Shown here: positions 21,206 through 53,494 of the stretch, one piece after another
Layout of the letters: every line of letters starts with the position of its first letter
Numbering within the stretch: position 1 is the stretch's first letter
Source: Planococcus versutus
GTDB lineage: Bacteria > Bacillota > Bacilli > Bacillales_A > Planococcaceae
Direction: 5' to 3'
Assembly (NCBI RefSeq): GCF_001186155.3
Contig: NZ_CP016540.2
Location: forward strand, 2,210,001 to 2,274,000
Length of the DNA: 64,000 bases
Notes under the pieces: model-generated
What the model was told of the DNA's origin: nothing
The model's input: the letters and a program-made list of their open reading frames with translations, nothing else
Database searches by the model: none
Made by a program: the position numbers and the translations under genes

Positions 21206-22019
21206 TCCATCGCGTCCATTATATCTTGTTCCTTATTATTTATGGATTGTTTTATTTGTTATCGCACCAATTGCATTAGTCTTCTATTTTTCTTTTTTAG
21301 ATTTGACTGGTGCTTTTTCGCTTGAAAACTACAAAAACTTCTTTTCTTCTGTTTATTTACGGATGACTTTAAGTTCTTTTTGGTATGCATTCGTGATTAC
21401 ACTCATCACCGTTATTATCGCTTACCCAACAGCTTATTGGTTGACTAAAACGAAGCATAAACAATTATGGCTCTTACTAATTATCATTCCTTCCTGGATT
21501 AACTTATTGCTGAAAGCTTACGCATTTATCGGAATATTTGGATTGTACGGACCTGCTAACAAGCTATTGCAAACACTTGGTACAGGACCATGGCAAATTT
21601 TGTTTACTGACTTTAGCTTTATCTTTGTTGCTGTTTATATTTTCATTCCATTTATGGTGTTGCCGATTTTTAACTCGTTAGATAAAATCAATCCCGCTTT
21701 AATAGATGCGTCACGAGATTTAGGTGCTTCGGCTTTCACGACATTTAGACGTGTCATTTTCCCATTAGCCATTAACGGAGTGAAATCTGGCATACAAGCA
21801 GTATTTATCCCGGCCTTATCGCTTTTTGTTATTACGCGATTGATTGCTGGAAATAAAGTGATTACGCTCGGAACAGCAATTGAACAACAATTTCTCGTTA
21901 CGCAAAACTGGGGCATGGGTTCAACCATTGCAGTGTTTTTAATCTTGTTTATGATCATCATTATGATGGTAACAGGACAGAAAGAAAAAGGAGGGTCTGA
22001 CAATGGCAAAACTAAGTAA
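21195..22019 (+). CDS. potB: Spermidine/putrescine ABC permease PotB
   Basis: A 274-residue inner-membrane permease with about six transmembrane helices. The EAA-loop is [20 protein letters not shown], the coupling-helix site for PotA. The start ATG 21195 lies inside the end of potA (CGGAG ten bases upstream), and the 3' end overlaps potC. The pairing with PotC as a heterodimeric pore is standard for the family. Confidence 0.92.
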
Positions 22020-22809
22020 GTCTGCAAAAATCTACTTAATACTAGTTTTTGCCGTTTTGTATGCGCCTATTTTCTATCTGATTTTCTATTCTTTCAACAG
22101 CGGTGGGACAATGGCGAGTTTCGAAGGATTTACTTGGGAACATTACGGAGCTGTGTTTAACGATACTCGCTTATTGATTATTTTAATGAACACGGTGATC
22201 ATTGCGTTATTATCATCTCTTTTTTCCACTGCTATCGGCGTGCTCGGTGCAATTGGCATCGTCTTTTTGAGAAATCGCAAAACACGTAATACTGTGTTAT
22301 CGTTAAATACGATTTTAATCGTCAGTCCAGACGTTATCATTGGAGCCTCTTTTCTAATTTTGTTCACTTTAATTGGTGTCAAGCTCGGCTTTGCTTCGGT
22401 TCTCATTTCACACATTGCATTTAGTATTCCGATTGTGGTTATAATGGTTTTGCCGAAGCTACAGGAAATGAGTACGTCATTGATTGATGCGGCAACTGAT
22501 CTTGGTGCATCAAAACGCGACATTTTAACACGCGTCATCATTCCCTATATAAAGCCAGGTATTTTCGCAGGATTTTTCTTGGCGCTGACGTATTCATTAG
22601 ACGATTTTGCAGTGACTTTCTTCGTTACTGGAAATGGGTTTTCTACTTTGTCGATCGAGATCTATTCAATGGCACGTGCTGGAATTACATTAACGATCAA
22701 TGCGCTATCGGCTTTAATTTTCGTCGTTACACTCGGTCTGGTTCTTGGTTATTACTTTTTTAATCAACGTACAGGTCAATCTCCAGGAACGGGAGGTGCT
22801 AAACTATGA
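22003..22809 (+). CDS. potC: Spermidine/putrescine ABC permease PotC
   Basis: A 268-residue permease with six predicted helices and the EAA-loop DAATDLGASKRDILTRVIIP. AAAGGAGGGTCTGACA precedes ATG 22003, inside the end of potB. Its stop overlaps the potD start by four bases (ATGA). Confidence 0.92.
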   Translation: MAKLSKSAKIYLILVFAVLYAPIFYLIFYSFNSGGTMASFEGFTWEHYGAVFNDTRLLIILMNTVIIALLSSLFSTAIGVLGAIGIVFLRNRKTRNTVLSLNTILIVSPDVIIGASFLILFTLIGVKLGFASVLISHIAFSIPIVVIMVLPKLQEMSTSLIDAATDLGASKRDILTRVIIPYIKPGIFAGFFLALTYSLDDFAVTFFVTGNGFSTLSIEIYSMARAGITLTINALSALIFVVTLGLVLGYYFFNQRTGQSPGTGGAKL

Positions 22810-25179: not shown

Positions 25180-25222
25180 AAAACAGCAGCTCAAACCTTA
25201 AAGGTTTGAGCTGCTGTTTTTT
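25178..25222. terminator. Bidirectional terminator, MFS / MoxR operon
   Basis: A near-perfect 21-bp palindromic stem with AAAAAACAGCAGCTC on the left arm and its complement on the right serves both converging units. Confidence 0.93.
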
Positions 25223-25242: not shown

Positions 25243-27816
25243 TTATTTTTTACTTTTCGCTTTTATTAATTGATCAATTGCTGTAGGTGAAGAAACTTCT
25301 TCTTTTGTAACTTTTCTTTTTGCTATAGATGCTGGAAGCCCGAAACGGCGAAGCGTGATATCCGTAAAAAACAAGACCATTGCGATAAACAAGACAATCA
25401 GCTGAATCGACCGAGTACTACCACTCTTGTAAGACATATCTCGAAAAGCTGCATCTAACGTCTCTAAGACCTGCCCACCTGTCCGATCAGCCAGTGTGGT
25501 CATTAAAGACACGTTTGTCTCTGCCGGTTGGTATTCATCTCCATAAGGAATCGTCATGCCTGTTTTATAGGCAGCCCCTGTTTCGTTGCTAATGCTCAAA
25601 AATACTAACCCGGGTTCAGCATCGATTTTCACGTCTACTTTTCCAGGTGCTACCGGTTCCGTCTGCAGCGGAATCTCGTTGCCTTGCTCATCTACTGCTG
25701 CAACCGTTAAAATCGCCGAGCTCCGAGTAGGATCCTCGACTGTATATACGCCTTGCTCTTTTCGTACGACTGAAAAAGGAATTTCTTCAAACGTAGGCTG
25801 TAATTCAGCTACAGTTTTATTCCAAAACTCTGGCCACTTCGACCAGCTCTGAAAATCTCCACTCCATGCCCCGCTCCCAGACGTAAAAGCAATTGTTTTT
25901 CCAAGGCCATAATTCCAACTCGCGAGTACCGGATCTTGTTCTTCACTTTCGAGTGCTACCGTTGCTGTATTTTTCGCGGTCGTTGCAATATAGGTATTCA
26001 ACTGCGGTACACCGTCTGCAAACAAATTATTCCATTTACTGTCGTATACCACCGGATAAAATGGCTTATCGACAATGTATGTTCGTGACATCATAATCGT
26101 TTCACGGGATAAAATAGCTGGAATTGTTGTGGCATCTGTGACATCGTAAAACCTCCCGCTACCTGTACTAGCTAGTTGCTCCAATAAATTTCGATCTGCA
26201 TCTTGACCGATGGAAACAGTCGATAAGGTAATGTTATTGTCTTTTCCGTTTTCGATTAATGCATCGTAATCATTGGATGTCGCGGATTGTCCATCTGTTA
26301 ACAGGATAATGTGTTTGCGTTGCAGTTTTAAGTCTTCTAGTTCCATATAAGCTTGCTGCAACGAACGATAAATTTCAGTTCCACCACCAGGTGTAATACT
26401 TAAAATTTTATCTACTGCTTTTTTAGAATCTGCTACTTTAGCTATCGGTAAGATTTCCCACGGTTTGTCATCAAACGCAATAACTCCTAGCGTGTCATTG
26501 GGACGCAACAGTTCAACAGAACGAGCAGCTGCTTCTTTTGCTAGTTCCATTTTCATGCCCATCATGCTTCCCGAACGGTCCATAACAATCATTAGCCCAA
26601 GTGAAGGTAATTCATGCTTGCCTTTGACTTCCATTTCGACTGGCAATAACTGTTCGATTGGCGTTTTAAAATAGCCACCTAATCCAAAGCTTTGGTCGCC
26701 ACCAACCATTATAAATCCAACACCAAATTGACGAACCGCTTGTTCAATAATTGTCATTTGTTGTTCCCCTACAGATGTTCCAGAAACATTATCAAAAATA
26801 ATTGAATCATAACGAAGGATGGCAGATAAACTGCTCGGCAATTGATCCGCGGCTAGTTCCGTTACGCCTAAATTATTCGTATCCAATAAAAGTGCTATTG
26901 GGCTTGGAACACCGCCGTTGACGACTAGCACTTCTGGGTTTCCAGAAACTTCTGTGATGCTAAACATTGAATTGTTTTCAAGGTACGCATCTTTCGCCGT
27001 TTCTATACGGACTTCATACTTTTGAAGCCCTTCTAAATTAGCAGGATACGAATAGCTATAGACATTTTGACCTTCAACAACTTTGATTTCTTTCTTATCC
27101 AACTCTTTATCATTAGCAGAAAAAATAAGTTTAGCTGTTGATTCAGTATCTGAGTCAATGGCTACAGTAAAAGTTTGCGATTCACCTAAAAATGCACGTG
27201 AGGGCGTTTCAAAGCGACTAATCGCTAGATCATTTTTGGCGATTTGTTCGACTGGCCAGATATCCACTTGAAGACGCTCTGACTGTAGTCGATTTAAACT
27301 TTCAATAGCAGACGATTGTGTTTCATTGCCATCCGTTAAAATGACAAGTCGCGTCGCTAAGTTGGTATCTCCACTATTTGAAGCAAGTTCTAACGCCCGC
27401 GCAATATTGGTGTGGCTATTGTTTCCAACGGTTAGTTCTGCCGGTAAAAGTTGCGGATCGTTGGTCATTGGTAACAAGCTTTGGAAATCCTCTGCAAATG
27501 TATAGACCGCGATAGATTGATGATCTTTTTTGGCTTCTACTGCTTCTTCAATTGCCACGGTCATTGCTGTTTGCATTCCTTCAAGAGACGCAGAACGGTC
27601 CATAAGAAAAATAACTTGTTCTTCTTTTACAGGACTAAATAACGAAGGAGCTGCCAAAGCAACTATCAACAAGGTGACAGCCACGGTTCTTAAAACAAAC
27701 ACAACCTTTATCATTTTAGAGCTAGCTGAAAAATGCTTGAGTGCAAACCACCCAAAATAACACAGCACCGGAATGAGTAACAATAGCCAGATGGGCTTAT
27801 CGAGTTGCAATTCCAC
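25243..27816 (-). CDS. Membrane protein with two VWA domains and a GATase-like domain
   Basis: An 857-residue membrane protein, last gene of the MoxR operon. Two N-terminal helices (about 8-24 and 38-60) are followed by a first VWA domain with MIDAS FLMDRSAS, a beta-rich segment, and a type-1 glutamine-amidotransferase-like domain (starting EVLVVNGG). A second VWA domain is inserted in that domain, with a complete MIDAS (VMDRSGSMMG, GGGTEIY, LLTDGQS). A final helix lies near residue 820. The GTG 27816 start follows GGAGGTG and overlaps the previous gene by 20 bases. The family occurs beside MoxR/DUF58 genes; its function is unknown, but metal-dependent protein contacts outside the membrane are likely. 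Confidence 0.85.
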   Translation of the reverse strand: MELQLDKPIWLLLLIPVLCYFGWFALKHFSASSKMIKVVFVLRTVAVTLLIVALAAPSLFSPVKEEQVIFLMDRSASLEGMQTAMTVAIEEAVEAKKDHQSIAVYTFAEDFQSLLPMTNDPQLLPAELTVGNNSHTNIARALELASNSGDTNLATRLVILTDGNETQSSAIESLNRLQSERLQVDIWPVEQIAKNDLAISRFETPSRAFLGESQTFTVAIDSDTESTAKLIFSANDKELDKKEIKVVEGQNVYSYSYPANLEGLQKYEVRIETAKDAYLENNSMFSITEVSGNPEVLVVNGGVPSPIALLLDTNNLGVTELAADQLPSSLSAILRYDSIIFDNVSGTSVGEQQMTIIEQAVRQFGVGFIMVGGDQSFGLGGYFKTPIEQLLPVEMEVKGKHELPSLGLMIVMDRSGSMMGMKMELAKEAAARSVELLRPNDTLGVIAFDDKPWEILPIAKVADSKKAVDKILSITPGGGTEIYRSLQQAYMELEDLKLQRKHIILLTDGQSATSNDYDALIENGKDNNITLSTVSIGQDADRNLLEQLASTGSGRFYDVTDATTIPAILSRETIMMSRTYIVDKPFYPVVYDSKWNNLFADGVPQLNTYIATTAKNTATVALESEEQDPVLASWNYGLGKTIAFTSGSGAWSGDFQSWSKWPEFWNKTVAELQPTFEEIPFSVVRKEQGVYTVEDPTRSSAILTVAAVDEQGNEIPLQTEPVAPGKVDVKIDAEPGLVFLSISNETGAAYKTGMTIPYGDEYQPAETNVSLMTTLADRTGGQVLETLDAAFRDMSYKSGSTRSIQLIVLFIAMVLFFTDITLRRFGLPASIAKRKVTKEEVSSPTAIDQLIKAKSKK

Positions 27817-29530
27817 GACGATACACCTCCCATTCCAGAAGCACTAACAGTAAGATGATCCCTATAATAAATGGCACAAACGAAAAACGAACGGTATCTT
27901 GTACAGCTTTTGACTGCCCCATTACATAAGACGACCCAGCAGAAAGCTCTTTTTCTTGAGAAGTTAGCTGTACAATCATGGTCATGTCTTTTTCATCACC
28001 CACCACTTGGTAAATACCCGGTTCATTAGGTGCCACAAAAGGTCCGCTCCCTTCAATATAAGAATGGCGATAAGCACCGTCTCGAAAGATTTCCCATTCT
28101 CCGGTTGGTGAAGCTAACGACATGGATCGGTGTTCATTTGGCTGGAAAAAACCAAGAAATTCCGCATCGTCTGATAAACTTTCCATGGCACTCCATAAAA
28201 ACAAAGGAAAAGAAGGAGAAAGCGGCCAGTCGGTCAATTGAACATCTGTCAACACCACAATGTCTCCTTTTGGAGACACTTGAATAAACGGATGATCATC
28301 TATTGTGGCGATGGTTTCGTAGCCTTTAAAAGGTGGATATAGTTGTGAAACATACACTTCATCCAATGAAGCATAGGTGAAAAGCGGATGTGGCTTTGTC
28401 TCAATTTGACCTGTCACTTCAAAAGGATTTTCATCATTTCGCCCAAACATAAAAATGGGTGTCGTGGCTTCTAGTAAATCACGTTGATTCGTAACTAATG
28501 GCAATCCTGCGTCAGGCTGCAATTGAGTGGCTTCGGCTAAACTAACATCTAAAGCGAGTGAACGAAAACCACTTGCGATTAATTCATGCAAAGCCGAGTC
28601 AATGACAATTGCGTTAACTGGCGGAGCTAAATATGTTGCCATTGTATTATCCGCAGCATAATCATCCGATACGTCTAGCTCTGCTTGCCATAGCTTGTAG
28701 TTTGGCAACTCATCAAACGGAACGAGCAGTTCTTCTGCCGCTTCGAGTTTTACTTCTACTGCTTTTTCAAAACTGCCAGACGATAAACGCACAGTAGCAT
28801 TCATGGATGTTTCGCTATTATTGATAACTTGGACAATGCCTCGTGTCCCTTTATCCGTTTCTGAAAGACCCAGTTGGCGAATAGCTACATTAGTCAGTTT
28901 TTCCGAAAACCCATGAACTTGATAACTTTGTCCTGTTTTATTGGCAAGGGCAGCACGGTCTAAGTAATCGGTAAAAATATGAATAATCGTTGAGTCATTA
29001 GTCGCGAGCGTATCCGCAAATAAAATCGTTTGCTCCATTTCGGCATTTTCGTAACTTACGGCTAATTGGTCAATTGCTTTTTCCACTCGCTCAACATTTT
29101 GCTCATTGCGAATAACCACTTCTGGACTAACACCCGTCGTAACAATTGTCACAGGCTTGCCTCCTGCTTGTGACGCTAATTTCTTCATTTGTGCTTGTTG
29201 CTTTTCAAAATGCGTTGGAGAACCAGCTAACATCGTTGCTGACGTATCCACAATAAAAACAAAGTCATTGCCAGCTAAAGTTTCCGATTCGTTGAAGGGC
29301 TCAATTAACGCCAGTACACAAAAAAGAAGAGCAGCCAATTGAAGATAAAACAATAAATGATGCTGTAATTTTTTCAAATAAGGCGAAGCTTGCAACTCTT
29401 TCATTCGTTCTTGCCAAAACAAAGTTGAAGAAACGCGCTGGTCTTTGTATTTTTTTCTAAAAAAATAATAGAGAATGACGGCTAGCGGCATAATTGCCGT
29501 CCAGATCATCACCCAATTTGCTACTCCCAT
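27797..29530 (-). CDS. BatA-type VWA membrane protein
   Basis: A 577-residue protein with the N-terminal BatA membrane module (helices about 5-22 and 60-77, with the linker RVSSTLFWQERMKEL). A VWA domain follows, with MIDAS FIVDTSATM near residue 93, then a beta-rich extracellular-type region and a C-terminal helix (about 553-569). AGGTGAAGCGGC precedes ATG 29530. It sits between the DUF58 and double-VWA genes, with which it overlaps or nearly abuts, so the three are expected to act together. Confidence 0.85.
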   Translation of the reverse strand: MGVANWVMIWTAIMPLAVILYYFFRKKYKDQRVSSTLFWQERMKELQASPYLKKLQHHLLFYLQLAALLFCVLALIEPFNESETLAGNDFVFIVDTSATMLAGSPTHFEKQQAQMKKLASQAGGKPVTIVTTGVSPEVVIRNEQNVERVEKAIDQLAVSYENAEMEQTILFADTLATNDSTIIHIFTDYLDRAALANKTGQSYQVHGFSEKLTNVAIRQLGLSETDKGTRGIVQVINNSETSMNATVRLSSGSFEKAVEVKLEAAEELLVPFDELPNYKLWQAELDVSDDYAADNTMATYLAPPVNAIVIDSALHELIASGFRSLALDVSLAEATQLQPDAGLPLVTNQRDLLEATTPIFMFGRNDENPFEVTGQIETKPHPLFTYASLDEVYVSQLYPPFKGYETIATIDDHPFIQVSPKGDIVVLTDVQLTDWPLSPSFPLFLWSAMESLSDDAEFLGFFQPNEHRSMSLASPTGEWEIFRDGAYRHSYIEGSGPFVAPNEPGIYQVVGDEKDMTMIVQLTSQEKELSAGSSYVMGQSKAVQDTVRFSFVPFIIGIILLLVLLEWEVYRRGIATR

Positions 29531-29541
29531 GCCGCTTCACC

Positions 29542-30402
29542 TCACCCGATCCAATTTTTTCGTATCATTTGATGAAATAACACTTGCTCGATTCCGTCTT
29601 CTACATTTACCGGTAAATAAGCAATCCCATAAGTGCGACAAAGAGATTCTAAACCTTTGCTGTGCAGTTCACTTTGCTTTTGGTATGCACGAAGTGCTTC
29701 TTCTGTCACCGTCACGCTCGTTACTTGTTGCGTTTCATCATCGATAAAACGTAAATCTCCTTTGTAAGCCGGCAATCGTTCGTCTTGTGTAGTCACATGA
29801 ATAAATCGGATATCGTGCGCAAAAGCCGGAGCCTGTCTGAAAAACACCTGCCAATCTTCAAGTGGTTCTAGTCCATCGGATACGATGAATAATACAGTAG
29901 AGTCCTTTGCGGCATGAAAACGTGCTTGACGCACGAATGATACGTTTTCAGGATCTGGCATAGCAGATACAAAATGTTCAAACAGTTTTTTTGCTGATTT
30001 TCCTTTTTTACGAAAAGGAATTATTTTTTTGGATCCCGCTGATACCGTTAAGCGGTCATCACTTCCCAACACCATTAACCCAAGTGAAAACGCCAATTGC
30101 TTGGCAAACAACCATTTATTGCTCATTGATTTTGAACTATCAAGCAAGACATGGATACGCATTTCTTGCTCATCTAGAAACCGTTTAATGTAGATGCGTT
30201 CCGTTCGGGCATAAACGTTCCAGTCGATATGGCGGACATCGTCTCCTGGATGGTATTCGCGAAAATCGGAAAAATCTAATGAACTACCAAAACGCATTGA
30301 CCGGTGAGACCCTTTATGGTGTCCTTTAATTTTTGCTTTTGTACCTATGGCATAGCGACTAAGACGCGAACCCCAATCAGCTGGTAAATTTAATACCGTC
30401 AT
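29542..30402 (-). CDS. DUF58 family protein
   Basis: A 286-residue cytosolic protein with the DUF58 signature FSDFREYHPGDDVRHIDWNV (about residues 43-62), followed by a VWA-like fold (VLLDSSKSMSNK). Family members accompany MoxR ATPases almost invariably and are thought to be their substrates or adaptors. The start ATG 30402 overlaps the moxR stop by four bases (ATGA). A second DUF58 protein, longer and membrane-anchored, is encoded at 45.8 kb. Confidence 0.9.
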   Translation of the reverse strand: MTVLNLPADWGSRLSRYAIGTKAKIKGHHKGSHRSMRFGSSLDFSDFREYHPGDDVRHIDWNVYARTERIYIKRFLDEQEMRIHVLLDSSKSMSNKWLFAKQLAFSLGLMVLGSDDRLTVSAGSKKIIPFRKKGKSAKKLFEHFVSAMPDPENVSFVRQARFHAAKDSTVLFIVSDGLEPLEDWQVFFRQAPAFAHDIRFIHVTTQDERLPAYKGDLRFIDDETQQVTSVTVTEEALRAYQKQSELHSKGLESLCRTYGIAYLPVNVEDGIEQVLFHQMIRKNWIG

Positions 30403-31391
30403 TTCAATACGCCTTTTCCAGCTGTGCTCAGCACACTATCAATCAACTCATCTGCATTTTTACCCATCGCTTCTGCTTCATAATTTAATAACAAGCGGTG
30501 CCTCAATACCGGTTTTGCCACATGTTTTAAATCACCAATTGACACATGATACCGTCCTTCCATTAACGCACGTGCTTTAGCTAAACGGATCAAACTTTGC
30601 AGACCACGAGGACCGCTACCGTATTGAACAAATTGCTGGATTTCTTGATGTTCTGAATGCTCTGGATGCGTATTTTGAATGATATCGACAGCGACCATTA
30701 AAATGTCTTCTGCTATCAACACTTCTTTCACCATATCTTGTGCATCAATTAAGCTAGCTGTATTCATTTTTTTACTAAGAAGAATTAGTTGAGATCCCGT
30801 TGTTCTGCGGCTAATTTCCGCAAGTTCCTCGCGACTTGGGTAAGCAACCAGGATTTTACAAAGAAAACGGTCCATTTGTGCTTCAGGTAACGGATAGGTC
30901 CCTTCCATTTCAATAGGATTTTGTGTTGCCAAAACGAAAAACGGTCGCGCCATTTTTTTCGTATCACCCAGTATGGTCACTGTCTTTTCACCCATTGCCT
31001 CTAGCAGCGCACTTTGTGTTTTCGGTGTAGCACGGTTAATTTCATCTGCAAGTACCATTTGGTGAAAAATCGGACCTTCTCGAAAAGTAAACTGCTGGCG
31101 TCCTTCTGCATCTCGTTCAATGAGGCTCGTCCCTGTAATATCCGAAGGCATCAAATCGGGTGTAAACTGAATTCTTGAAAACGACAAATCGAGCACATCT
31201 GAAATGGTCCGAATCAACATTGTTTTACCAAGACCGGGCAAGCCTTCTAGTAAGGCATGACCATCCGCTAGAATCGCGTACAAAGAAAACTCAACCGCGC
31301 TTTCTTGTCCGACGATAAACCGTCCAATTTCGGATTTAACTTGTTGAAGCAATTGGCTCATTTCTGTAAATTGATCGGTTGTGTATGTCAT
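30399..31391 (-). CDS. MoxR-family AAA+ ATPase
   Basis: A 330-residue AAA+ chaperone-like ATPase. Walker A is LLEGLPGLGKT (about residues 53-63), Walker B LADEINRA, sensor 1 FVLATQNPIE, and the C-terminal lid has GSGPRGLQSLIRLAKARAL. MoxR proteins use ATP to remodel or assemble partner complexes, commonly VWA proteins inserting metal or maturing surface complexes. AGAGGGC precedes ATG 31391. It lies centrally in the eight-gene unit. Confidence 0.93.
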   Translation of the reverse strand: MTYTTDQFTEMSQLLQQVKSEIGRFIVGQESAVEFSLYAILADGHALLEGLPGLGKTMLIRTISDVLDLSFSRIQFTPDLMPSDITGTSLIERDAEGRQQFTFREGPIFHQMVLADEINRATPKTQSALLEAMGEKTVTILGDTKKMARPFFVLATQNPIEMEGTYPLPEAQMDRFLCKILVAYPSREELAEISRRTTGSQLILLSKKMNTASLIDAQDMVKEVLIAEDILMVAVDIIQNTHPEHSEHQEIQQFVQYGSGPRGLQSLIRLAKARALMEGRYHVSIGDLKHVAKPVLRHRLLLNYEAEAMGKNADELIDSVLSTAGKGVLK

Positions 31392-31406
31392 AAAAAGCCC
31401 TCTTTT

Positions 31407-32786
31407 CTATTTGTCGGTTTCAATATCTGTAAAGTATTGTTCTACAATGGTTTGCAAATCAGCAGGCAATTGCAGACGATCTACACTTGAGAAGTACGAA
31501 GTCGAATAATTTCCCACTACATCCGCATAAGGATGAACGGTTCCTTTAGTTGCAGGAACAGCACCATATTGTTCACCGGCCGCTTCTCCTTCTCCGACTT
31601 TTCCGCTATCGATTGACGTGTCGCTTTGCCCTCCAATTCGGAATGGTACAGTTAACAGATCACGGCTTCCTTGACCTTTACCAGCTCCACCACCTTGCTG
31701 ACTATTTCCATTTCCTTGCCCTTGGTTTTGTCCTTGTCCTTGTCCTTGTCCTTGTCCTTGTCCTTGTCCTTGGTTTTGTGATTGGCTATTTTCTGACTCC
31801 GATTCTGACTCTGCAGCTCTTTCAGTAGTTTCACTTTCTTCGTTTTCTGATGATTGTCCACTAGCACTAGGTTCACCAGATTTACTTTCTCCGTCAGAAG
31901 ATTTATTTTCAGAAGAATCATTTTTTTTGCTACTAGTTGTTTGTTCTCGCTGAGCTATGGTTTGCTGTAATGGAAATGCTACGGGTTTTCCCATATTGCT
32001 TAAAGCCGATTGTGTGTTTCCTGCCTTCTCAGCTAACTGCCCAGCAGCTTTTTCAATATCTGCGCTAATTTCTTTAGCATTTGGATTTTTGCCTTCTGCC
32101 AGCTGCCGTTTTTTCAAGTCCAATTCTTTTTGTTTTTTGACGATTTCTTTCAGTACTGCTTCTGGATTTTCTTTTTCTTCGATGGTTGCTTGTAATGCAT
32201 CCAGTTCTTTTTTAACTATTTTTGTTTTTGCTTGTTTTTTGATTTCATCAATTTCTTTTTTGATATCTGCTACCAATTCGATTTCTTTTTCTACATCATT
32301 TGCTTGATTTTGCAAATTACTTGGAAACACTAAAAGTAAAACCAATAACGTCGCACTACCAACCGCTCCGATTAACCACTTAGGACGTAGCCATACTTTG
32401 TGTTCTTTGCGGAATAATTGGTAGCTATACGGAATGGTTTTGGCTGTTTCACGAGTCAATTCTTCAGTCAATGCATTGTGCTCTGTTAGCTTCCACACGG
32501 TCAGCAACTGATTATGAGGTATAAAACGGTCCAGTTCTTGCACTGCTTGTTGCATATGGGGCAATCCTTTACTAGATAACACAATCCAACTTATCACGAC
32601 AGCAATTCCTGCTACATATGCATAAAATTCATAATAAGGAAGCACGAACAATCGTGATACTAATAGTAACGCTGTTGCTAAAGTCAGACCTGCAAATAAC
32701 GCAAATTGAAAAACACGACTAATATGAAGCGCCTTTAACAGCCACTCAACTTTTTTGACGTATTTCCGAATATCACGATTGTTCAT
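31407..32786 (-). CDS. Membrane coiled-coil protein with Gly-Gln repeat
   Basis: A 459-residue protein of no recognised function. Transmembrane helices lie near residues 25-45, 50-70 and 140-158. A long charged coiled coil (about 165-250) follows, then a Ser/Glu-rich disordered stretch and a GQGQGQ tract (about 338-352) encoded by seven exact copies of a 6-bp unit. The C-terminus (YADVVGNYSTSYFSSVDRLQ) is conserved-looking. The overall plan resembles DUF4175-type proteins that accompany MoxR/VWA genes; this is a tentative link. AAGGAGGGAGTTTC precedes ATG 32786. Confidence 0.75.
   Translation of the reverse strand: MNNRDIRKYVKKVEWLLKALHISRVFQFALFAGLTLATALLLVSRLFVLPYYEFYAYVAGIAVVISWIVLSSKGLPHMQQAVQELDRFIPHNQLLTVWKLTEHNALTEELTRETAKTIPYSYQLFRKEHKVWLRPKWLIGAVGSATLLVLLLVFPSNLQNQANDVEKEIELVADIKKEIDEIKKQAKTKIVKKELDALQATIEEKENPEAVLKEIVKKQKELDLKKRQLAEGKNPNAKEISADIEKAAGQLAEKAGNTQSALSNMGKPVAFPLQQTIAQREQTTSSKKNDSSENKSSDGESKSGEPSASGQSSENEESETTERAAESESESENSQSQNQGQGQGQGQGQGQGQNQGQGNGNSQQGGGAGKGQGSRDLLTVPFRIGGQSDTSIDSGKVGEGEAAGEQYGAVPATKGTVHPYADVVGNYSTSYFSSVDRLQLPADLQTIVEQYFTDIETDK
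31731..31772 (-). repeat. Seven tandem 6-bp repeats inside the coiled-coil gene
   Basis: TCCTTG is repeated seven times without error on the plus strand, coding Gly-Gln on the minus strand and flanked on both sides by GTTTTG. Because the unit is six bases, gain or loss would alter length without shifting frame. Confidence 0.9.
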
Positions 32787-32798
32787 GAAACTCCCTCC

Positions 32799-33641
32799 TT
32801 ATTTGTATTTATTCATATTAACGCGCAACTTTTTGACAGCTAACAAAAGACAGCCGGCTGATACCAAAACATAGAAAATAGCATAACCGATCCACAATGG
32901 AATGGGCACCATCGTCAAACTTTGCAATTGCTCCTCCATTGGTGGTTGCAGCAAAGTGAGTAACACAGCTGGTGGATTGATCGTTGCCCAAAAGTGAGCA
33001 ACTGGCGATATTGATGGTGTTGTAGCACCTATTTGAGAAAGTTGAACCGAAATCAGTAAGAAAAAAGCAGTGACTCCCGCGATGAAAATCATGGCTCCAT
33101 ACGTTGCGATAATCGCAACAATGGTTTTACGAATCAAAGTTGACAGCATGACACCAATACTTGCGATTGCCAGTAACGTCAGCATATAAAACAAGAAGAT
33201 ATAAAATAGCTGACTAGGTGAAACGCCTCCGTATAAAAACACTAAACTGTATATTGGTAACCCTGACACAATCATCAATAACAAAAAAGCGATGGATGAT
33301 GTCATTTTCCCAAAAATAATTTGGAAAGAAGTTTGCGAAGTTGTTAGTAAAATATTCAAAGTCTGTTTTTCACGTTCTGTACTAATCGTTCCTGCTGTTA
33401 ATGCGGGCGTAATAAACAAAATCAATCCTAATTGAATATACGTCATAATGCTAAATAGCATAAAACTTTCATCTGGACGGAAAAAACCGTTACCTGTTAG
33501 AGATGTAGCTAAAAAGATAAAACCAAAAACAAAGACGCTCATCGCAATTAAATAAAACAAAATACCAGTAAAGCTTTTTAAGTTACGGAAACGCAATTTA
33601 AGTTCTTTCACTAGTACGGGATTGGCAAAAAGAGTTTTCAT
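32799..33641 (-). CDS. ABC-2 type permease
   Basis: A 280-residue membrane protein with six predicted helices, starting MKTLFANPVLVKELKLRFRN. The loop STEREKQTLNILLTT after helix 2 is typical of ABC-2 exporters (gliding-motility GldF/NosY-like). It pairs with the ATPase encoded just upstream, with a four-base overlap. It is likely an exporter or a membrane-remodelling channel rather than an importer, since no binding protein is present. The substrate is unknown. Confidence 0.87.
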   Translation of the reverse strand: MKTLFANPVLVKELKLRFRNLKSFTGILFYLIAMSVFVFGFIFLATSLTGNGFFRPDESFMLFSIMTYIQLGLILFITPALTAGTISTEREKQTLNILLTTSQTSFQIIFGKMTSSIAFLLLMIVSGLPIYSLVFLYGGVSPSQLFYIFLFYMLTLLAIASIGVMLSTLIRKTIVAIIATYGAMIFIAGVTAFFLLISVQLSQIGATTPSISPVAHFWATINPPAVLLTLLQPPMEEQLQSLTMVPIPLWIGYAIFYVLVSAGCLLLAVKKLRVNMNKYK

Positions 33642-34573
33642 CCAATTTCCACTCCTTTTGTAATCGCCATAAAGACATCTTCCAAATCCGTTTCTTCTTC
33701 TGAAAACGACAAAATCGGTAACTTTTGATGAATAGCACGTTGCAATAGTTGAAGCTGATCTTCATCTGTTCCGCGATAGAAAAACTGAATGCTGTTTTTA
33801 TCTGGTTGTACTTCTATTTGAGAAACAAACGGATCCATTTCAAAAAATGCAATGACGGATTCCATTTCGCCAACTAGTTTGACACAGAGTACTTTTTCAC
33901 TTTGAAGTTGCGCTTGAATGTCATGTACTGACCCTTGTGCGATCAGTTTTCCATTATCAATGACGCCGATACTGTCGCACATCTCAGCAAGTTCTGGAAG
34001 AATATGAGAAGAAATCAAAATGGTTTTACCCATCGCTTTTAGCTCGCGTAATATATCTCTCATTTCGACTCGTGCACGTGGATCTAGTCCCGAAGCAGGT
34101 TCGTCTAGTATTAAGATGTTCGGATCATGTATTAACGCTCTTGCTAAACAGAGACGTTGCTTCATACCACGAGACAATAAATCGACGTAGTCATAGCGTT
34201 TATGTTCTAAGTTAACTAGTTCTAGTAGCTTAGGAATTAATACTGCGCGTTCTTTTGGTTTGATGCCATAACTCGCTCCATAAAAATCTAAGTACTCGTC
34301 GGTTTTTAATTGGTCATACACTCCGAAGAAATCAGGCATATACCCAATTTGTTTCCGCACTTCTTGCGGATTTTTAGTTACACTGATGCCATTAATAAAT
34401 GCATCACCTGCTGTCGGCTGAAGCAGTGTAGCTAAAATTGAAAAAGTGGTTGATTTCCCCGCTCCATTTGCACCTACAAAACCAAACACTGTGCTATCTT
34501 CTACCACTAAATTTAAATCCTGTAAGGCATAAAACGATCCGTATTTTTTGGTTAATCCAATTGTTTCAATCAC
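33638..34573 (-). CDS. ABC transporter ATP-binding protein
   Basis: A 311-residue ATPase with Walker A GANGAGKST (about residues 34-42), signature LLSRGMKQRLCLARAL, Walker B ILILDEPASGLD, and the switch histidine in ILISSHILPEL, the style of ABC-2 export ATPases (NatA/GldA/CcmA-like). The GTG start overlaps the stop of the preceding gene (GTGA). A C-terminal extension of about 80 residues carries a ferredoxin-like regulatory fold by appearance. Confidence 0.9.
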   Translation of the reverse strand: MIETIGLTKKYGSFYALQDLNLVVEDSTVFGFVGANGAGKSTTFSILATLLQPTAGDAFINGISVTKNPQEVRKQIGYMPDFFGVYDQLKTDEYLDFYGASYGIKPKERAVLIPKLLELVNLEHKRYDYVDLLSRGMKQRLCLARALIHDPNILILDEPASGLDPRARVEMRDILRELKAMGKTILISSHILPELAEMCDSIGVIDNGKLIAQGSVHDIQAQLQSEKVLCVKLVGEMESVIAFFEMDPFVSQIEVQPDKNSIQFFYRGTDEDQLQLLQRAIHQKLPILSFSEEETDLEDVFMAITKGVEIG

Positions 34574-36927
34574 GGAGCAATCACTCCTTTCAATTTCACT
34601 TTCGGCACAACCACTTCAGGGTTGCTCATGTTTTCGGTAACTTTCAACTTTAGTTTAATGGCACCTTCTGGACCGATATACTGTTTTGCTTTTTCAGCAA
34701 ACTTTTGATTTGTCTCTGTAATTTCTTCGTAACTTCCACTTTTCACATTGAATATGCTGACGGTGACATTTTGTCCTGTTTTAGTAAGTGCTAATTCAGT
34801 CCATGTCGATTTTTCTAAATCAATTTCTTCTGGCAAAGTATATGTCAGATCAAATTCACCGGGGTCAAAATAATAAAGATACGGATCGTTTGAAACATTC
34901 TCAAAATACACACCATTATTGACACTTGTTAGAGCCATTGCAAAGGCATCAACATTTAATGTAATGTCGCCATTTAATATTAATTGAGGTTTAAAACTTT
35001 GTGCAATAAGGTGAACAGATTCTACAGATGCGCGTTGATTTTCAAGCGTAATCGGTACGATGGCATCTTTTGTATAAGCAATCACATAAGGTGATTTTCC
35101 ATTTTGTGATAATTGCTCAAATGACGTAGAAAGCAAGGTTTGACGACGTGCTTTTTTCAACTCTTTCAAATTGGCTACAGGTTGATAGCCATATGATTGA
35201 CTAACAGATGCAGCAGGTGACAAAATAGCTGACTGAGCGGTTTCATTCACTTCTAACGTTTCTCCAGGATTCAACTCGCCTACATCCATTAGACGAGTAC
35301 CTGTCCAAATAGAAACATCTTCGACTGAAAACGGAAAATTATTCTGTATTGTTCCAGTAATTTTCCCTTCTGCAACGGATAAGTCAATAGCGAAGTCACC
35401 ACTGTCTTTTATATAGGATTGCCCCATAATCGATTGCACAGACCAATAACGCATATCACGCAAAGTCATTTGATTAGTAGTGGCTCCTTTTTCCAAAATA
35501 GCTGCCAAATAAGGTTGTGTTGATGAAAATTCACTAGCTAATTGAGTCGTCATTGTAGTAGAAGTTGGTGCTGAAAATTGATAGTTTCCACCACGATTTG
35601 ATAATAAGGAATTGACATAATAGCCTTTTAATCCACTGTCTGCATCTACTTCAAAAAATCCAGTTTGTTGGATTTGAGGATTTCCAATTCGGTCTTTTGC
35701 ACCAAATGCGAACAATCCAATTGAGGTCAGTAGAGCAATAGTTGGAATAATAAACCAAGCGTATTCTCGTTTGTCTTTTTTCTTCAGTACAATGTACAGT
35801 ACTGGAACCACTATTAGAATATACAAAAAAACAATCGCTAGTATAAACGGTGTGGACACTTTAAAGCTTTCAAAAAGCTCATTTACATTTCCTACCTCAT
35901 ATGTCATAGAATCGAGTATGGATTGTCCACCCATTGTATTGTAGTTTGTAGAAGTCACCGGAAAGAAACTCGACATCATCTGACTATAACCTTTTTGACT
36001 GGAAACGGTTTCATCTCCAAGAGAAAAACTCATTTGTGTAAGACTTCCAGAGCCAATTTTCTGTGTAGCAGCAAAAATTTGACCGTCTTTTTGCAACTTT
36101 ATAGATGCCCCTTCTTTAATCTTTGTTTGGAAAACCGGTACTGCTGTTTCTAATCCTGGAACTTTTGCATCGTTCACATCTGCTAATTCCAAAGGCAAGT
36201 ATTCACTCAAATTGCCAAGTTCTGCTTGTAGATTACTTGTAGATCCTGTGACAACATGTCCACCTTGTTGAATCCATTGCAAAACAGCTTTTTGTGTAGG
36301 TGCTGGTAAATCACTATAAGCAAATTCATCAATGACCAAGTAATCGATCATTTCCCACGATTGCGCTTCTGTAGGCAGTGTAAATTCTTTTAATTGATTG
36401 AGATGTAGAACTTCAATTCCTTCGCTCGATGGAACAGTTATTTGTTTTAAAGGTGACAATCGATCTGCATTATCCGTTAACGTCGCTACAAATAGCGACA
36501 TTGACGTATAGTAGGATGGTTGTATCGTTTTTTTGCCTTTAAATTTAATAGATTCTCCTTTTTCCCAACCACCTTCAAACAAGTAAATACTTTGATCGTT
36601 AGGTCCTCCCGAATAATACATATCTGATAACCCAGACGTTGCAATTTGTAAGGTTTTACTTTCTCCTTCAGCAAGTTCAATTGGTAGCGCCATACCAGTT
36701 CCAAGGTTGTAAGTCTCGGAAAAACTAAGTACCAAGTCACCAGAAAATGCTGAACCTTCATTGGTCACTGTAAATTGAAGTGGCAATCCACTTTCATACT
36801 TTGCTTTGTTTTGAAAACCGGCACTTGAATCAATGGTAATTTGTGGCGCTGCTAAAGATGGTTGTGGCAAGATAAACAAACTAATAAAAAATACAAAAGC
36901 TAAAAATGCCAGCAGGCGTTTATGCAT
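34570..36927 (-). CDS. Large exported membrane protein, first gene of MoxR operon
   Basis: A 785-residue protein of unknown function. It has a signal peptide (hydrophobic residues 5-22, ending SLAAP) and a long extracellular beta-rich region with a GATase-like segment (YLVIDEFAYSDL, GGHVVTGS). Two helices lie near residues 360-382 and 393-412, and a second extracellular beta-rich half runs to the end. It would present large domains on the outer face of the membrane. The ATG 36927 is preceded by AAGGGGGATTACC. It leads an operon with ABC export genes and MoxR/DUF58/VWA genes. Confidence 0.8.
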   Translation of the reverse strand: MHKRLLAFLAFVFFISLFILPQPSLAAPQITIDSSAGFQNKAKYESGLPLQFTVTNEGSAFSGDLVLSFSETYNLGTGMALPIELAEGESKTLQIATSGLSDMYYSGGPNDQSIYLFEGGWEKGESIKFKGKKTIQPSYYTSMSLFVATLTDNADRLSPLKQITVPSSEGIEVLHLNQLKEFTLPTEAQSWEMIDYLVIDEFAYSDLPAPTQKAVLQWIQQGGHVVTGSTSNLQAELGNLSEYLPLELADVNDAKVPGLETAVPVFQTKIKEGASIKLQKDGQIFAATQKIGSGSLTQMSFSLGDETVSSQKGYSQMMSSFFPVTSTNYNTMGGQSILDSMTYEVGNVNELFESFKVSTPFILAIVFLYILIVVPVLYIVLKKKDKREYAWFIIPTIALLTSIGLFAFGAKDRIGNPQIQQTGFFEVDADSGLKGYYVNSLLSNRGGNYQFSAPTSTTMTTQLASEFSSTQPYLAAILEKGATTNQMTLRDMRYWSVQSIMGQSYIKDSGDFAIDLSVAEGKITGTIQNNFPFSVEDVSIWTGTRLMDVGELNPGETLEVNETAQSAILSPAASVSQSYGYQPVANLKELKKARRQTLLSTSFEQLSQNGKSPYVIAYTKDAIVPITLENQRASVESVHLIAQSFKPQLILNGDITLNVDAFAMALTSVNNGVYFENVSNDPYLYYFDPGEFDLTYTLPEEIDLEKSTWTELALTKTGQNVTVSIFNVKSGSYEEITETNQKFAEKAKQYIGPEGAIKLKLKVTENMSNPEVVVPKVKLKGVIAP

Positions 36928-37063: not shown

Positions 37064-37093
37064 ACAAAAAAACGAACAGCTAAAGCTGTCCGC
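37064..37093 (-). terminator. Terminator of dapH-dapL
   Basis: The stem GGACAGC/GCTGTTC on a tight loop is followed on the minus strand by seven T residues immediately after the dapL stop. Confidence 0.78.
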
Positions 37094-37095
37094 TT

Positions 37096-38220
37096 TCATA
37101 ATTGTAAAAATAAACCATATAAAAATTCAGGCATGACTGCAAGGACTTTTTCATCAGGATTTAGTTTTGAATGATGCAGTCCATAGGGTGACGAAACCCC
37201 TGCCCAAAACATAACGCCTGGGATTTGTTCGGTAAAGTAACCGAAATCTTCACCGGTCATCGCGGCTTTGCTTTCTATAGCATGAATGCCTTCAATGCCA
37301 TTAGCGTAGCGGAAGAAGTCTTTTACTAATCTTTCATCGTTGTTAACTTCCAAGTAACTCGAACCGTAATCAATATTGACTTGGCAGTTGTTTGCTTGTT
37401 CAACTCCATGGCAAATGGCTTCAATCCGAAGTTTCATTTGACGCATCGATTTACTAGTAAGTGTTCGGATAGTTCCTTCTAAACGTGCATGTTCTGCAAT
37501 ACTGTTTTGCGCGGTTCCTGCGCTCAGCTTGCCAATTGTCAACACGGCAGAATCCATAGGGTCCACATTTCGACTGACAACGGTTTGCAACTGCATCAAC
37601 ATCGAAGCCGCTGCAATTGCCATATCTTCTGTTAAATGAGGAAAAGCTGCATGACCACCTTTGCCGTGAAGGTCAATAAACAATTCTGATGTATTAGCAA
37701 ACAACAATCCTGGTCGTGTCCCCACCGTACCAACAGGTAACTCCGGGGCAATATGCAAAGCATAAATACAATCAGGTAAAAAGTCTGGTTTGTTCGTTTT
37801 CAGCCATTCCCGAAAAGGCAATGCACCACCAGGCCCTTCTTCAGCTGGTTGAAACAAGATGACTACATCATTTTTAATAGGTTCGTCAATTAGCTTGTGT
37901 AACAAACCTATTGCAATAGTCATATGGATATCATGGCCACATGCATGCATAAATCCCGGATGCTGTGATTGAAATTCCACTCCAGTTTCTTCGTTAATCG
38001 CTAAAGCATCAATGTCTGTTCGCCAACCAATCAGCTTTGCCGGATCTTCCCCGCGTACTTTAACCGCAATTCCTGTCCGCCATTTTACAAGTTCAATACG
38101 CTGTTGAGGAAACTGAGAAATGATGTTTAATAAATAAGCTTGTGTTTTGATTTCCTGAAAACCGATTTCTGGAATTTGATGCAAAGCTCTTCTAATTTTC
38201 ACTAGTTCCATCGCGCTCAT
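37096..38220 (-). CDS. dapL: N-acetyldiaminopimelate deacetylase
   Basis: A 374-residue M20-family metallohydrolase that removes the acetyl group from N-acetyl-LL-diaminopimelate in the acetylase branch of lysine/DAP synthesis (YkuR of Bacillus subtilis). Metal-site motifs are HACGHDIHMT (about residues 90-99), FQPAEEGPGGA and the C-terminal LHHSKLNPDE. It starts at or beside the dapH stop with no clear Shine-Dalgarno (ATG 38220; a GTG lies one codon earlier), suggesting coupling to dapH. Other M20 amidohydrolases are similar, but the dapH neighbour settles the call. Confidence 0.9.
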   Translation of the reverse strand: MSAMELVKIRRALHQIPEIGFQEIKTQAYLLNIISQFPQQRIELVKWRTGIAVKVRGEDPAKLIGWRTDIDALAINEETGVEFQSQHPGFMHACGHDIHMTIAIGLLHKLIDEPIKNDVVILFQPAEEGPGGALPFREWLKTNKPDFLPDCIYALHIAPELPVGTVGTRPGLLFANTSELFIDLHGKGGHAAFPHLTEDMAIAAASMLMQLQTVVSRNVDPMDSAVLTIGKLSAGTAQNSIAEHARLEGTIRTLTSKSMRQMKLRIEAICHGVEQANNCQVNIDYGSSYLEVNNDERLVKDFFRYANGIEGIHAIESKAAMTGEDFGYFTEQIPGVMFWAGVSSPYGLHHSKLNPDEKVLAVMPEFLYGLFLQL

Positions 38221-44621: not shown

Positions 44622-45845
44622 TCAAACATTTTCTTTCAAATAAATTTCCTTTATTTTTTCAATCTCAGCAATAAACTTTGTTGCTTGTGATTGAGGCAAT
44701 TGTTTATCTCCATAACGAACACGGTCATAAGTGTTATAAAAAGAGTCAGTTACATCCCATTGCATTCGTCTTACCCATTCTCGAACCGTTTCGTAATCTT
44801 CTCGTCCCAAATCTACGCTATTCGCCGCTCTTTCAAGTTCTCGAAACACTTCTCTAATTTGATGCAAATTTATTGTGCTTTCCGTAGACTTTGTAGCAAG
44901 TGAAACGACAGATTCCGTTGAATTGTGATCGTATCTTTTAATGCTACTTACACTTTCTTTAACTGGTACTTGTATATCTGGCTTTACTTTTCTTAACCAT
45001 AAAACAAGTACAATAATGCATGCTAGCACAATGAAACTTAGTAAAATTTCAACTGGAAAGTCTGTGGAGGAAATGTCGCTCACTACTGTTTCATTTTGCA
45101 CGGCTTCTTCGTCAGGACCTAGTTTATCGATAGTTTCTTGCATTTCCTCTTCTGGTGACAAGCCCGACAAAAATTCACTAATCTGCTCTAGCACCAGTGC
45201 AAGTGGCCAAAAGACAATTCGAATCATGCCTCCTAAAACCCAACCTACCCCACTACGAACTTCATCGGCGATAAAAAAAGTAACGAATGCCGCTATCGTG
45301 GGTATGCTTAACAAAATGCCCCATAAGGTGATCGCTTGCCCAAAGTGTGCACCGTCCAATTTGGAGTAAAGGTAATGATACAATAAATGGCTAGTCACAT
45401 AAAACAACACCCCCATTGGTACAATGGTGAAAAGTAAACGACTTGACTGCTCATCGGGATTTAATAGAAGAAAAACCCAGCATACACTAAAGACTACAAG
45501 AAACTTCATTAAAAAGTGATGTCCCGTATTAAATTCATCATAATAGCTTGAATATCTTTCATGAAGCATATAGACAAGCAATATTCCTAAAATTAGCACT
45601 AGCCATAAAGGAACGTTCATCATCCACATACTAACTGCTAGAATACTTGAAATACCAATTACCCATAGTAATTGATAAGAAAATTTCGAAAAAAAAGCAA
45701 AAGCGATTATTGAAGCGAAAAATGCTCCTAACAACCAACTCCAAGCAACAGGCAACACCATTTCTTGAGACACAAACACCAACACTAAAGAAATAATAAA
45801 AGCATCCAGCATAAAATAGATGCTAGAAATCAAACGTGAACTCAT
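44622..45845 (-). CDS. Membrane protein with C-terminal DUF4129-like domain
   Basis: A 407-residue membrane protein with about eight helices: six or seven in the first 220 residues and one near 262-284. A cytosolic C-terminal domain (about 325-400) includes FRELERAANSVDLGREDYET and VRRMQWDVTDSFYN, resembling the DUF4129 domain that ends transglutaminase-like proteins such as YebA. The extracellular transglutaminase domain itself is absent, so this looks like a shortened YebA-type partner. Its ATG overlaps the DUF58 stop (ATGA), completing a MoxR-DUF58-DUF4129 operon. Confidence 0.75.
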   Translation of the reverse strand: MSSRLISSIYFMLDAFIISLVLVFVSQEMVLPVAWSWLLGAFFASIIAFAFFSKFSYQLLWVIGISSILAVSMWMMNVPLWLVLILGILLVYMLHERYSSYYDEFNTGHHFLMKFLVVFSVCWVFLLLNPDEQSSRLLFTIVPMGVLFYVTSHLLYHYLYSKLDGAHFGQAITLWGILLSIPTIAAFVTFFIADEVRSGVGWVLGGMIRIVFWPLALVLEQISEFLSGLSPEEEMQETIDKLGPDEEAVQNETVVSDISSTDFPVEILLSFIVLACIIVLVLWLRKVKPDIQVPVKESVSSIKRYDHNSTESVVSLATKSTESTINLHQIREVFRELERAANSVDLGREDYETVREWVRRMQWDVTDSFYNTYDRVRYGDKQLPQSQATKFIAEIEKIKEIYLKENV

Positions 45846-46996: not shown

Positions 46997-47932
46997 CTAA
47001 AATGCCTCTACCGGTGAAGAAACTGAAGTTAAAATTTCACGTAAAATTGCAACAGGATCTTGAACCAGCATTCCTTCAGCTGTCAGCATCAAGCGATGTA
47101 CAGCTACAGGCTCTAATATGTATTTGACATCATCTGGTGTTACATAATTTCGTCCTTCAATAAAGGCTCGTCCTTGTGCAGCATGAACGAGTGCTAGAGC
47201 GGCTCTTGAACTTAAACCAAGTTCTATAGACAAGTGCTCACGTGTAGCACGAACTAATGCCAATATATACGTCTCAATATCTTCGTGAACAGCTACTTTT
47301 TCTGCTTCGTCATGCCATTTTCTTACGTCTTCTACTGAAGCAACCGGAAAAATTTCTTTTTTATGAGAAACGTTGTCACGGAAATTCCGAATAATTGCAA
47401 GTTCTTCTTCATACTCTGGATAACCAATTTCTAGGCGGAACAAAAAGCGATCAAGTTGAGCTGCTGGAAGTGGAAACGTTCCTTGTTGAGATTCAACAGG
47501 ATTTTGTGTCGCAATAACAATAAATGGATTTGGTAATTGAAGCGTTTCGCCATCAATGGTTGCTTGTTTTTCTTCCATTGATTCTAATAAACTTGATTGC
47601 GTTCTTGGCGTTGCACGGTTGATTTCGTCTGCCAATAATAAATTGGTTTGCACTGGACCTGCTCTAAGTTCAAATTCTTGTGTTTTCGGATTAAAAAAAC
47701 GTATGCCTGTCACATCAGATGGCAACACATCCGGTGTAAATTGAATTCGTTGAAATTGACCCGCAAATGACCCCGCAAAGGCTTTAGCCATCCATGTCTT
47801 GCCTGAACCTGGTACACTTTCAAGCAAGACATGACCTCCTTGAATTAAAGCAATTAACATAAAATCAAGTTCTTTTTTTCTACCTACCACTAACTGATTT
47901 AACTGTGCTTTTGTTTGTGCTAACTTTTCCAC
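46997..47932 (-). CDS. MoxR-family AAA+ ATPase (second locus)
   Basis: A 311-residue MoxR ATPase, YeaC-like. Walker A is LLESVPGSGKT (about residues 35-45), Walker B LLADEINRA, sensor 1 FIVIATQNPVE, lid SSRAALALVHAAQGRAFIEG. It is clearly a different subfamily from the MoxR at 30.4-31.4 kb. The start is GTG 47932 after GGAGGCG. It is first of a three-gene operon preceded by a 62-residue ORF in the same direction, 24 bases upstream. Confidence 0.92.
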   Translation of the reverse strand: MEKLAQTKAQLNQLVVGRKKELDFMLIALIQGGHVLLESVPGSGKTWMAKAFAGSFAGQFQRIQFTPDVLPSDVTGIRFFNPKTQEFELRAGPVQTNLLLADEINRATPRTQSSLLESMEEKQATIDGETLQLPNPFIVIATQNPVESQQGTFPLPAAQLDRFLFRLEIGYPEYEEELAIIRNFRDNVSHKKEIFPVASVEDVRKWHDEAEKVAVHEDIETYILALVRATREHLSIELGLSSRAALALVHAAQGRAFIEGRNYVTPDDVKYILEPVAVHRLMLTAEGMLVQDPVAILREILTSVSSPVEAF

Positions 47933-53463: not shown

Positions 53464-53494
53464 AAAAAAAAGTAAACCCGAAGGCTTACTTTTT
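53464..53494 (-). terminator. Terminator of the RND gene
   Basis: The stem AAGTAAGCC/GGTTTACTT with a TTCG tetraloop on the minus strand is followed by a run of T, overlapping the RND stop region. Confidence 0.82.

Follow-up and report, generated by a model that had tools for sequence, protein, structure and literature searches.

The window analysed here is a stretch of 64,000 nucleotides from the genome of Planococcus versutus, and the subject of this report is a set of eight codirectional open reading frames (ORFs) lying on its minus strand between positions 25243 and 36927. In the order of transcription the genes are P8, P7, P6, P5, P4, P3, P2 and P1. The distances between them, from P8 to P1, are -4, -4, 12, 15, -4, 11 and -20 bases, which agrees with a sequence-only reading of this DNA, made before our analysis, that described eight genes with overlaps or gaps of 15 bases or less. 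A purine-rich stretch resembling a ribosome-binding site was seen by eye ahead of most of the starts. We infer that the eight genes are co-transcribed. They are listed below, with the evidence for each assignment in brackets (ABC, ATP-binding cassette; TM, transmembrane; MIDAS, metal-ion-dependent adhesion site).

34570..36927, minus strand: P8, protein of 785 amino acids (ORF list, structure model, fold matches, TM scan)
33638..34573, minus strand: P7, ABC ATPase, DrrA/GldA-like (PF00005, E 5e-28)
32799..33641, minus strand: P6, ABC-2 permease with about six TM helices, GldF-like (PF12679/PF12698, TM scan)
31407..32786, minus strand: P5, protein of 459 amino acids (ORF list, TM scan, poor structure model, mean pLDDT 64)
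30399..31391, minus strand: P4, MoxR AAA+ ATPase (PF07726, AAA_3, E 8e-62)
29542..30402, minus strand: P3, soluble DUF58 protein with a MIDAS-like site (PF01882, E 1e-29; no TM helix)
27797..29530, minus strand: P2, protein of 577 amino acids with a BatA domain, a VWA domain and three TM helices (PF07584, E 1e-10; PF13519, E 2e-10; TM scan)
25243..27816, minus strand: P1, protein of 857 amino acids (Pfam, structure match, alignment, TM scan)

The Pfam matches of P7, P6, P4 and P3 confirm the identities proposed earlier for the ABC-2 ATPase, the permease, MoxR and the DUF58 protein. In what follows, P8, P7 and P6 are referred to as the ABC trio and P5 to P1 as the MoxR half.

The ABC trio and the MoxR half

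P8 begins with a signal-like N terminus, followed by a strand-rich part, a GATase1-like (GIFT-type) domain at about residues 145-325, two TM helices at residues 359-411 joined by a basic loop, and a strand-rich C-terminal half. The GIFT domain is named after GldG. The GATase1-like fold is that of the predicted structure (mean pLDDT 74, pTM 0.55), and at E 0.1 neither Pfam nor NCBIfam gave a family match for P8 of the window. When 16 diverse P8 sequences were searched, nine of them, the window protein not being among these, matched DUF4350 at E up to 0.1 (best 6.6e-5), and one gave a weak match to PF09822 (E 0.0028). Assignment of P8 to GldG by sequence was tried and rejected, as no GldG-type match was obtained in Pfam or NCBIfam, none was present in the genome at E 10, and no GldG row appeared in NCBIfam for the 16 diverse sequences. 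The nearest named relatives of P8, from P. antarcticus and P. kocurii, are 87% identical to it. The protein had been described as a large exported membrane protein; the signal-like N terminus stands, with two inner TM helices in addition, but P8 looks like a subunit of the ABC machine and not like its cargo, because it accompanies the ATPase and the permease even where the MoxR half is missing, and because of its GATase1-like fold. P7 scored 254 bits with the NCBIfam model of DrrA (TIGR01188) and 227 bits with that of GldA (TIGR03522), both under the curated cut-offs, and P6 matched the GldF model TIGR03518 at E 6.5e-8, likewise under the cut-off.

P5 consists of three TM helices, a coiled coil, a disordered Gly/Gln linker and a conserved C-terminal helical piece; it matched no Pfam family, and four NCBIfam models reached chance level only (E 0.06-0.08). 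One source names a relative of P5 as a DUF4175 protein, an assignment that was rejected, since no such Pfam match was found for P5 of the window or for eight distant relatives. P4 scored 207 bits with AAA_3, for which the cut-off is 27, and its Walker A, Walker B and DRF catalytic-type residues are invariant in 60 sequences. MIDAS-type residues are kept in P1, P2 and P3, those of P3 (D88, S92 and D176) in 60 of 60 sequences. The BatA domain of P2 scored 41.9 bits against a cut-off of 25.9, and its VWA domain is predicted by the positive-inside rule to lie outside the cell. In P1, a BatB-like VWA domain (VWA1; E 1.8e-8 with the BatB structure 3ibs, P1 being far larger than BatB) precedes a second one, VWA2, inserted between the halves of a GATase1-like domain, which is followed by a C-terminal TM helix and a basic tail. 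Pfam itself matched two VWA stretches in P1 and a portion of the GATase1-like domain. The "double VWA" of the earlier description thus comes down to three domains, one in the BatA protein and two in P1.

The basic tail of P1 is of variable length, with a crude median of 98 residues in 54 sequences and 35 residues in the window protein, and ends in a conserved LLxAKxx-type motif, typically R-L-L-x-A-K-K/R (LIKAKSKK in the window). One pattern found the motif in 56 of 60 sequences and a wider one in 58; the latter matched 0 to 3 of 59-60 C termini in six of the seven other proteins, and 15 of 60 in MoxR. These 60 sequences are not 60 independent cases, because the two samples of loci from which they come, described below, overlap (three pairs of identical P7 rows).

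Distribution and history of the gene set

Among 299 Bacilli genomes, searched with a threshold of E 1e-60 for P1 and the family cut-off for BatA, P8 was matched in 109. P1 was present in 55 genomes and BatA in the identical 55, all of them inside the 109, so that neither occurred without P8 in any sampled genome, and 54 genomes had P8 without P1 or BatA. At 53 of 56 BatA places P8 lay no more than 12 kb away; of the three exceptions, two were on other contigs and one was a weak second BatA. Up to 20 kb was then read around 40 places, chosen as 19 with BatA and 21 without. The exact order P8-P7-P6-P5-P4-P3-P2-P1 was found in all 19 BatA-positive loci, which represent nine families (in L051, two of the eight genes are each broken into two frames). 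The eight-gene set is modular, however: at the 21 places without BatA, P8, P7 and P6 were its only genes. Occurrence of the trio without P1 and BatA, and never the reverse in the sampled Bacilli, suggests that it is the ABC complex that the MoxR half serves. No match to P8 or P1 was obtained in five of 28 sampled Planococcaceae genomes, all five of one genus.

Two clusters of neighbouring genes recur at trio-only loci: in up to nine, a member of the first is found on the same strand about 1 kb upstream, and in eight, a member of the second stands directly ahead of P8. Two scanned members of the first cluster are extracytoplasmic function (ECF) sigma factors, and three of the second gave WD40-like or PD40 matches; in L060 (10477-12110) and L064 (7126-8750), as in related loci with the trio alone, the genes directly before the trio encode an ECF sigma factor and a WD40/PD40-like protein. 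Helix-turn-helix proteins precede the stand-alone trio in L063 and L068.

A tree of P7 from 79 loci and the window (the P7 of L051 was too short and was omitted) needs six changes between eight-gene and trio-only labels, at least five of them forced by supported branches. A single origin of the eight-gene array was therefore rejected, and repeated loss or gain of the MoxR half is indicated instead. The trio-only locus L054 groups beside a clade of Bacillaceae and Planococcaceae eight-gene loci with a bootstrap of 100 and has apparently lost the MoxR half. Distance correlations between the eight genes amount to 0.72-0.95 (59 rows), values that common descent alone explains.

In a wider search, a genome collection was scanned with the P1 alignment, and genes were called in the best 80 of 378 confirmed places by models built from the Bacilli loci, L051 being left out of their training. 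The exact eight-gene order, with P5 allowed to be split in two, was present in 39 of the 80 loci: 38 from Bacillota, including Thermincola and Clostridium neonatale, and one from Calditrichales (L114). Recurrence of the exact order in 19 of 19 Bacilli loci and in 39 of 80 P1 loci argues that the gene set is not due to chance. It supports the view that the ABC genes and the MoxR-VWA genes, whose linkage had been pointed out before, form one conserved set reaching well beyond Bacillales.

Other arrangements were also met. The Phycisphaerales locus L146 has the rearranged order 5-1-4-3-2-8-7, followed at 21345-22589 by what by eye appear to be genes for a sigma factor and a zinc-finger anti-sigma factor. 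Verrucomicrobia, Poribacteria and other planctomycetes have 5-4-3-2-1, 4-3-2-1 or fewer genes without the ABC trio, many of these on short contigs. A Chloracidobacterium (an acidobacterium) carries 8-7-6-5-4-3 at one place and 2-1 at another, an armatimonad 8-7-6-5-4 and 3-2-1 at different contig ends, and a Chloroflexi genome 8-7-6-6-5. The genomes of the 39 remaining loci, two of them Bacillota loci on short contigs, were searched for P8; L146 and L114 served as positive controls and both gave a match. A Bacillota contig that carries 5-4-3-2-1 and ends early (L076) was not counted among these 39. P8 was present at E < 1e-20 in 25 of the 39, and of 20 P8 places that were read, 16 had a same-strand ABC ATPase beside P8, in three cases about 1.1 kb away. 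Among these relatives from Chloroflexi, armatimonads and Verrucomicrobia, two permease genes occur in L186 and L192, and one enlarged permease (533-553 amino acids) in L190 and L191.

In the same 39 non-eight-gene loci the P1 tail motif was present in 10, absent from 27 and cut off by the contig end in two; two calls were made by eye, L144, missed by the pattern, being counted as having the tail, and L149, with a match inside a TM helix, as lacking it. The planctomycete locus L146, with linked P8 and ATPase, carries the tail, which is lacking in the 12 planctomycete-type loci that have no linked trio. At E < 1e-50, P8 was found in 10 of 10 tail-bearing genomes versus one of 27 tail-less ones (13 of the 27 at E < 1e-20), an association confounded by kinship, with which the scores of both P1 and P8 drop. 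These sequence patterns suggest that the tail may dock to the ABC trio, and make the ABC complex a possible partner of the tail besides MoxR. A Chloroflexi relative of P8 (L188, 8819-11476; 885 amino acids) has no ABC ATPase match within the 20 kb covered, and its genome bears a P1 with the tail motif (L119).

A possible two-motor machine and its alternatives

We propose, with a probability of about one half, that the eight genes encode one cell-envelope machine with two cytosolic ATPase motors, in which a GldAFG-like ABC complex is combined with MoxR-DUF58 and three membrane proteins. That the parts sit together in one complex, that two motors drive it and that it acts in the envelope is what we infer. 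P7, P6 and P8 would make up an ABC-2 complex of GldAFG-like type: P7 would hydrolyse ATP inside the cell and thereby, via P6, move the outer domains of P8. P4, presumably a hexamer, could act with P3 as its cytosolic VWA-like adaptor to assemble, switch or recycle an outer collar made of P2 with its BatA-VWA part, P1 with its two VWA domains, one of them within the GATase1-like domain, and the coiled coil of P5. MoxR-DUF58 would thus assemble or reset P1, P2 or P5 around P8 from the cytosolic side, probably by gripping cytosolic segments, among which the end of the P1 tail is the best candidate for a handle. The output might be the assembly, maturation or export of an envelope component. A bolder version, possible yet in our view doubtful, would make this an ancient two-motor envelope machine, with a GldAFG-kind ABC-2 motor and a MoxR ring around the GATase1/GIFT-type P8 and P1 of IFT52-like fold, which predates several phyla or crossed between them, was reduced to the trio in many lineages, and in which the LLxAK-type P1 tail docks to the ABC complex or to MoxR.

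Several observations speak against a single machine or against parts of the mechanism. In 21 of 21 BatA-less P8 loci, a preselected group that gives no rate, P8-P7-P6 were the only genes of the set, which means that the ABC part can do without the MoxR half. Independent distribution of the two parts, named in the sequence-only reading as a finding that would count against their common function, was hence seen in these 21 loci and in the 54 P8 genomes without P1 or BatA, but the linkage held in that all 55 P1/BatA genomes have P8. In the broader search, 14 of 39 P1-bearing genomes showed no P8 at E < 1e-20, and therefore the MoxR half may also work alone; the co-occurrence in the other 25 is suggestive only, with no figure from matched P1-less genomes to set it against. 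Four of the 20 P8 places read had no ABC ATPase, and one of these four is truncated where its contig stops. As a handle for MoxR the tail is not universal, since 27 of the 39 non-eight-gene loci are tail-less and 11 of these have MoxR in the same stretch. The IFT52 match of P8 in the fold search ties with the glutaminase Pdx2 and with glycosidase domains, and therefore its fold tells little about function; P7 is closer in score to DrrA than to GldA. Finally, the terminator scan lists eight sites on the coding strand within the eight genes, and 18 sites on both strands of all the DNA scanned versus 11.1 +/- 3.3 in shuffled sequences, so that internal transcript ends are possible.

A somewhat unlikely alternative is that an ABC exporter and a MoxR stress chaperone of the Bat type are neighbouring units with a common promoter that act separately. 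Each does occur without the other in the stretches read, and ECF-sigma genes ahead of some stand-alone trios indicate that the trio can stand as a separate unit under its own regulation. Results on Bat operons alone conflict: moxR and batA mutants of Riemerella were reported to be altered in stress survival (PMC11834572), though bat deletions in Leptospira were described as causing no growth or oxidative-stress defect (PMC3557215). Separate action is difficult to reconcile with the 55/55 co-occurrence in sampled Bacilli, the strict order, and a linkage that survives rearrangement in other phyla. The sequence-only reading itself favoured a dedicated secretion system, in which a specific surface protein or glycan leaves the cell through the ABC complex and is matured by MoxR together with the VWA proteins, much as Makarova et al. 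proposed for archaeal MoxR/vWA/DUF4350 genes. The archaeal parallel, which includes a GldG-like protein (PMC5898192), the altered exoproteomes reported for gldG mutants of Flavobacterium psychrophilum (PMC5682007) and VWA proteins predicted to lie outside, as fits surface assembly, all agree with this idea. We consider it unlikely, however, as P8 behaves as an ABC subunit rather than as cargo, and no constant cargo gene was found: no flanking gene cluster (ORFs of at least 150 amino acids in the 20 kb read) occurs in more than four of the 19 eight-gene loci.

Two further possibilities concern different activities of the same components. MoxR-VWA might be a chelatase-type pair that, with an ABC complex like NosDFY, inserts a metal or cofactor into an outer enzyme, as the retained MIDAS-type residues of P1, P2 and P3 and the matches of MoxR to chelatase models would allow. 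These matches are under the models' cut-offs, no chelatase or Nos model in Pfam or NCBIfam was reached over its cut-off, and no enzyme gene accompanies the set in the flanks of the eight-gene loci, which makes this very unlikely. Least probable of all, and hardly to be expected, is a MoxR-vWA system for anti-phage defence or conflict. P4 does exceed the Pfam cut-off for bpMoxR (38.6 versus 27 bits), but AAA_3 fits it far better; PADLOC, which may not include such systems, matched only the ATPases P4 and P7 and none of the other six proteins. P8 was not found in plasmid records, and a gene order fixed across families is unlike an exchanged defence cassette.

The borders of the set carry two terminator-like features:

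37068..37097, minus strand: terminator-like hairpin with T tract, between the upstream gene and P8 (terminator scan, consensus match only)
25184..25216, no strand assigned: terminator-like, bidirectional 14-bp inverted repeat with A6 and T6 flanks (seen in the sequence; absent from the list of the terminator scan)

The latter sits between P1 and a convergent major facilitator superfamily gene. Rfam and tRNA scans gave no matches. About 8 kb upstream of the eight-gene set, a second MoxR operon (44622-47932, minus strand) encodes a MoxR of 311 amino acids, a protein of 384 amino acids without a Pfam match at E 0.001 and one of 407 amino acids with a marginal DUF4129 match. Other MoxR matches in the genome lie at G000:C1:863811 and, weakly, at 1819551. 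A full-length gene for an AcrB-type resistance-nodulation-division transporter occupies 53486-56554 on the minus strand.

Comparison with known systems

MoxR-DUF58-VWA sets are common in bacteria and their function is mostly unsettled; the gene order found here points to a GldAFG-like ABC complex as a partner of one of them. The same neighbours are kept from Planococcus to Clostridia-type bacteria and Calditrichales, with other arrangements in planctomycete, acidobacterial and armatimonad genomes. The set thereby makes testable, in a bacterium that is harmless and can be cultured, both the targets of MoxR-VWA chaperones and the role of GldG-type ABC complexes outside gliding, and the P1 tail motif offers a short handle for a first experiment.

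Sets of the MoxR-proper (MRP) subfamily, Bat operons and mycobacterial moxR1 have already been described (PMC12067865, PMC11834572, PMC3557215). The present genes share with the Bat/MRP type the adjacent MoxR, DUF58, BatA-domain VWA and second VWA proteins, and a DUF58/VWA neighbourhood around a MoxR whose AAA_3 core keeps its Walker A, Walker B and DRF residues. They differ in that the TPR and BatD families of Bat operons were matched by none of the eight proteins (Pfam, NCBIfam), in the insertion of a VWA domain of P1 into a GATase1-like domain, and in the linked ABC trio and P5. The mycobacterial moxR1-DUF58-vWA operon beside ripAB likewise has MoxR, DUF58 and a membrane vWA protein, and MoxR1 is reported to interact with the wall hydrolase RipA, but the passages of that source at hand do not mention an ABC trio, P1 or P5 (PMC12067865). 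A paper on MoxR-vWA conflict systems mentions neither DUF58 nor an ABC transporter in its main-text wording (PMC7159879).

Searches for MoxR and partner proteins in the open-licence literature, which leaves subscription journals mostly uncovered, turned up no account of all eight genes together. Nearest to it comes the archaeal arCOG01314 system predicted by Makarova, Galperin and Koonin in 2015 to act in secretion or remodelling, in whose neighbourhood a MoxR-family ATPase, a vWA protein that is secreted and a membrane protein of GldG-like (DUF4350) type are encoded together (PMC5898192). The window set has a MoxR ATPase and a predicted outer vWA protein, as that neighbourhood does; it differs in the ABC-2 pair, DUF58, BatA and P5, which are unnamed in the parts of that account at hand, and the archaeal system includes Ig-like S-layer proteins (PMC5898192).

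GldA, GldF and GldG, which have been described in connection with gliding and secretion, are likely to constitute a single ABC transporter (PMC5682007). The trio resembles this Bacteroidota gliding complex in that an ABC ATPase and an ABC-2 permease are accompanied by a membrane protein that bears a GATase1-like/GIFT-type domain; it departs from it in the scores of P7 (226.9 versus a cut-off of 402.6 bits, TIGR03522) and P6 (32.9 versus 288.5 bits, TIGR03518), and in the two inner TM helices of P8, which lie in the middle of the protein. We regard the set as a MoxR-VWA module to which such a GldAFG-like ABC trio is tied.
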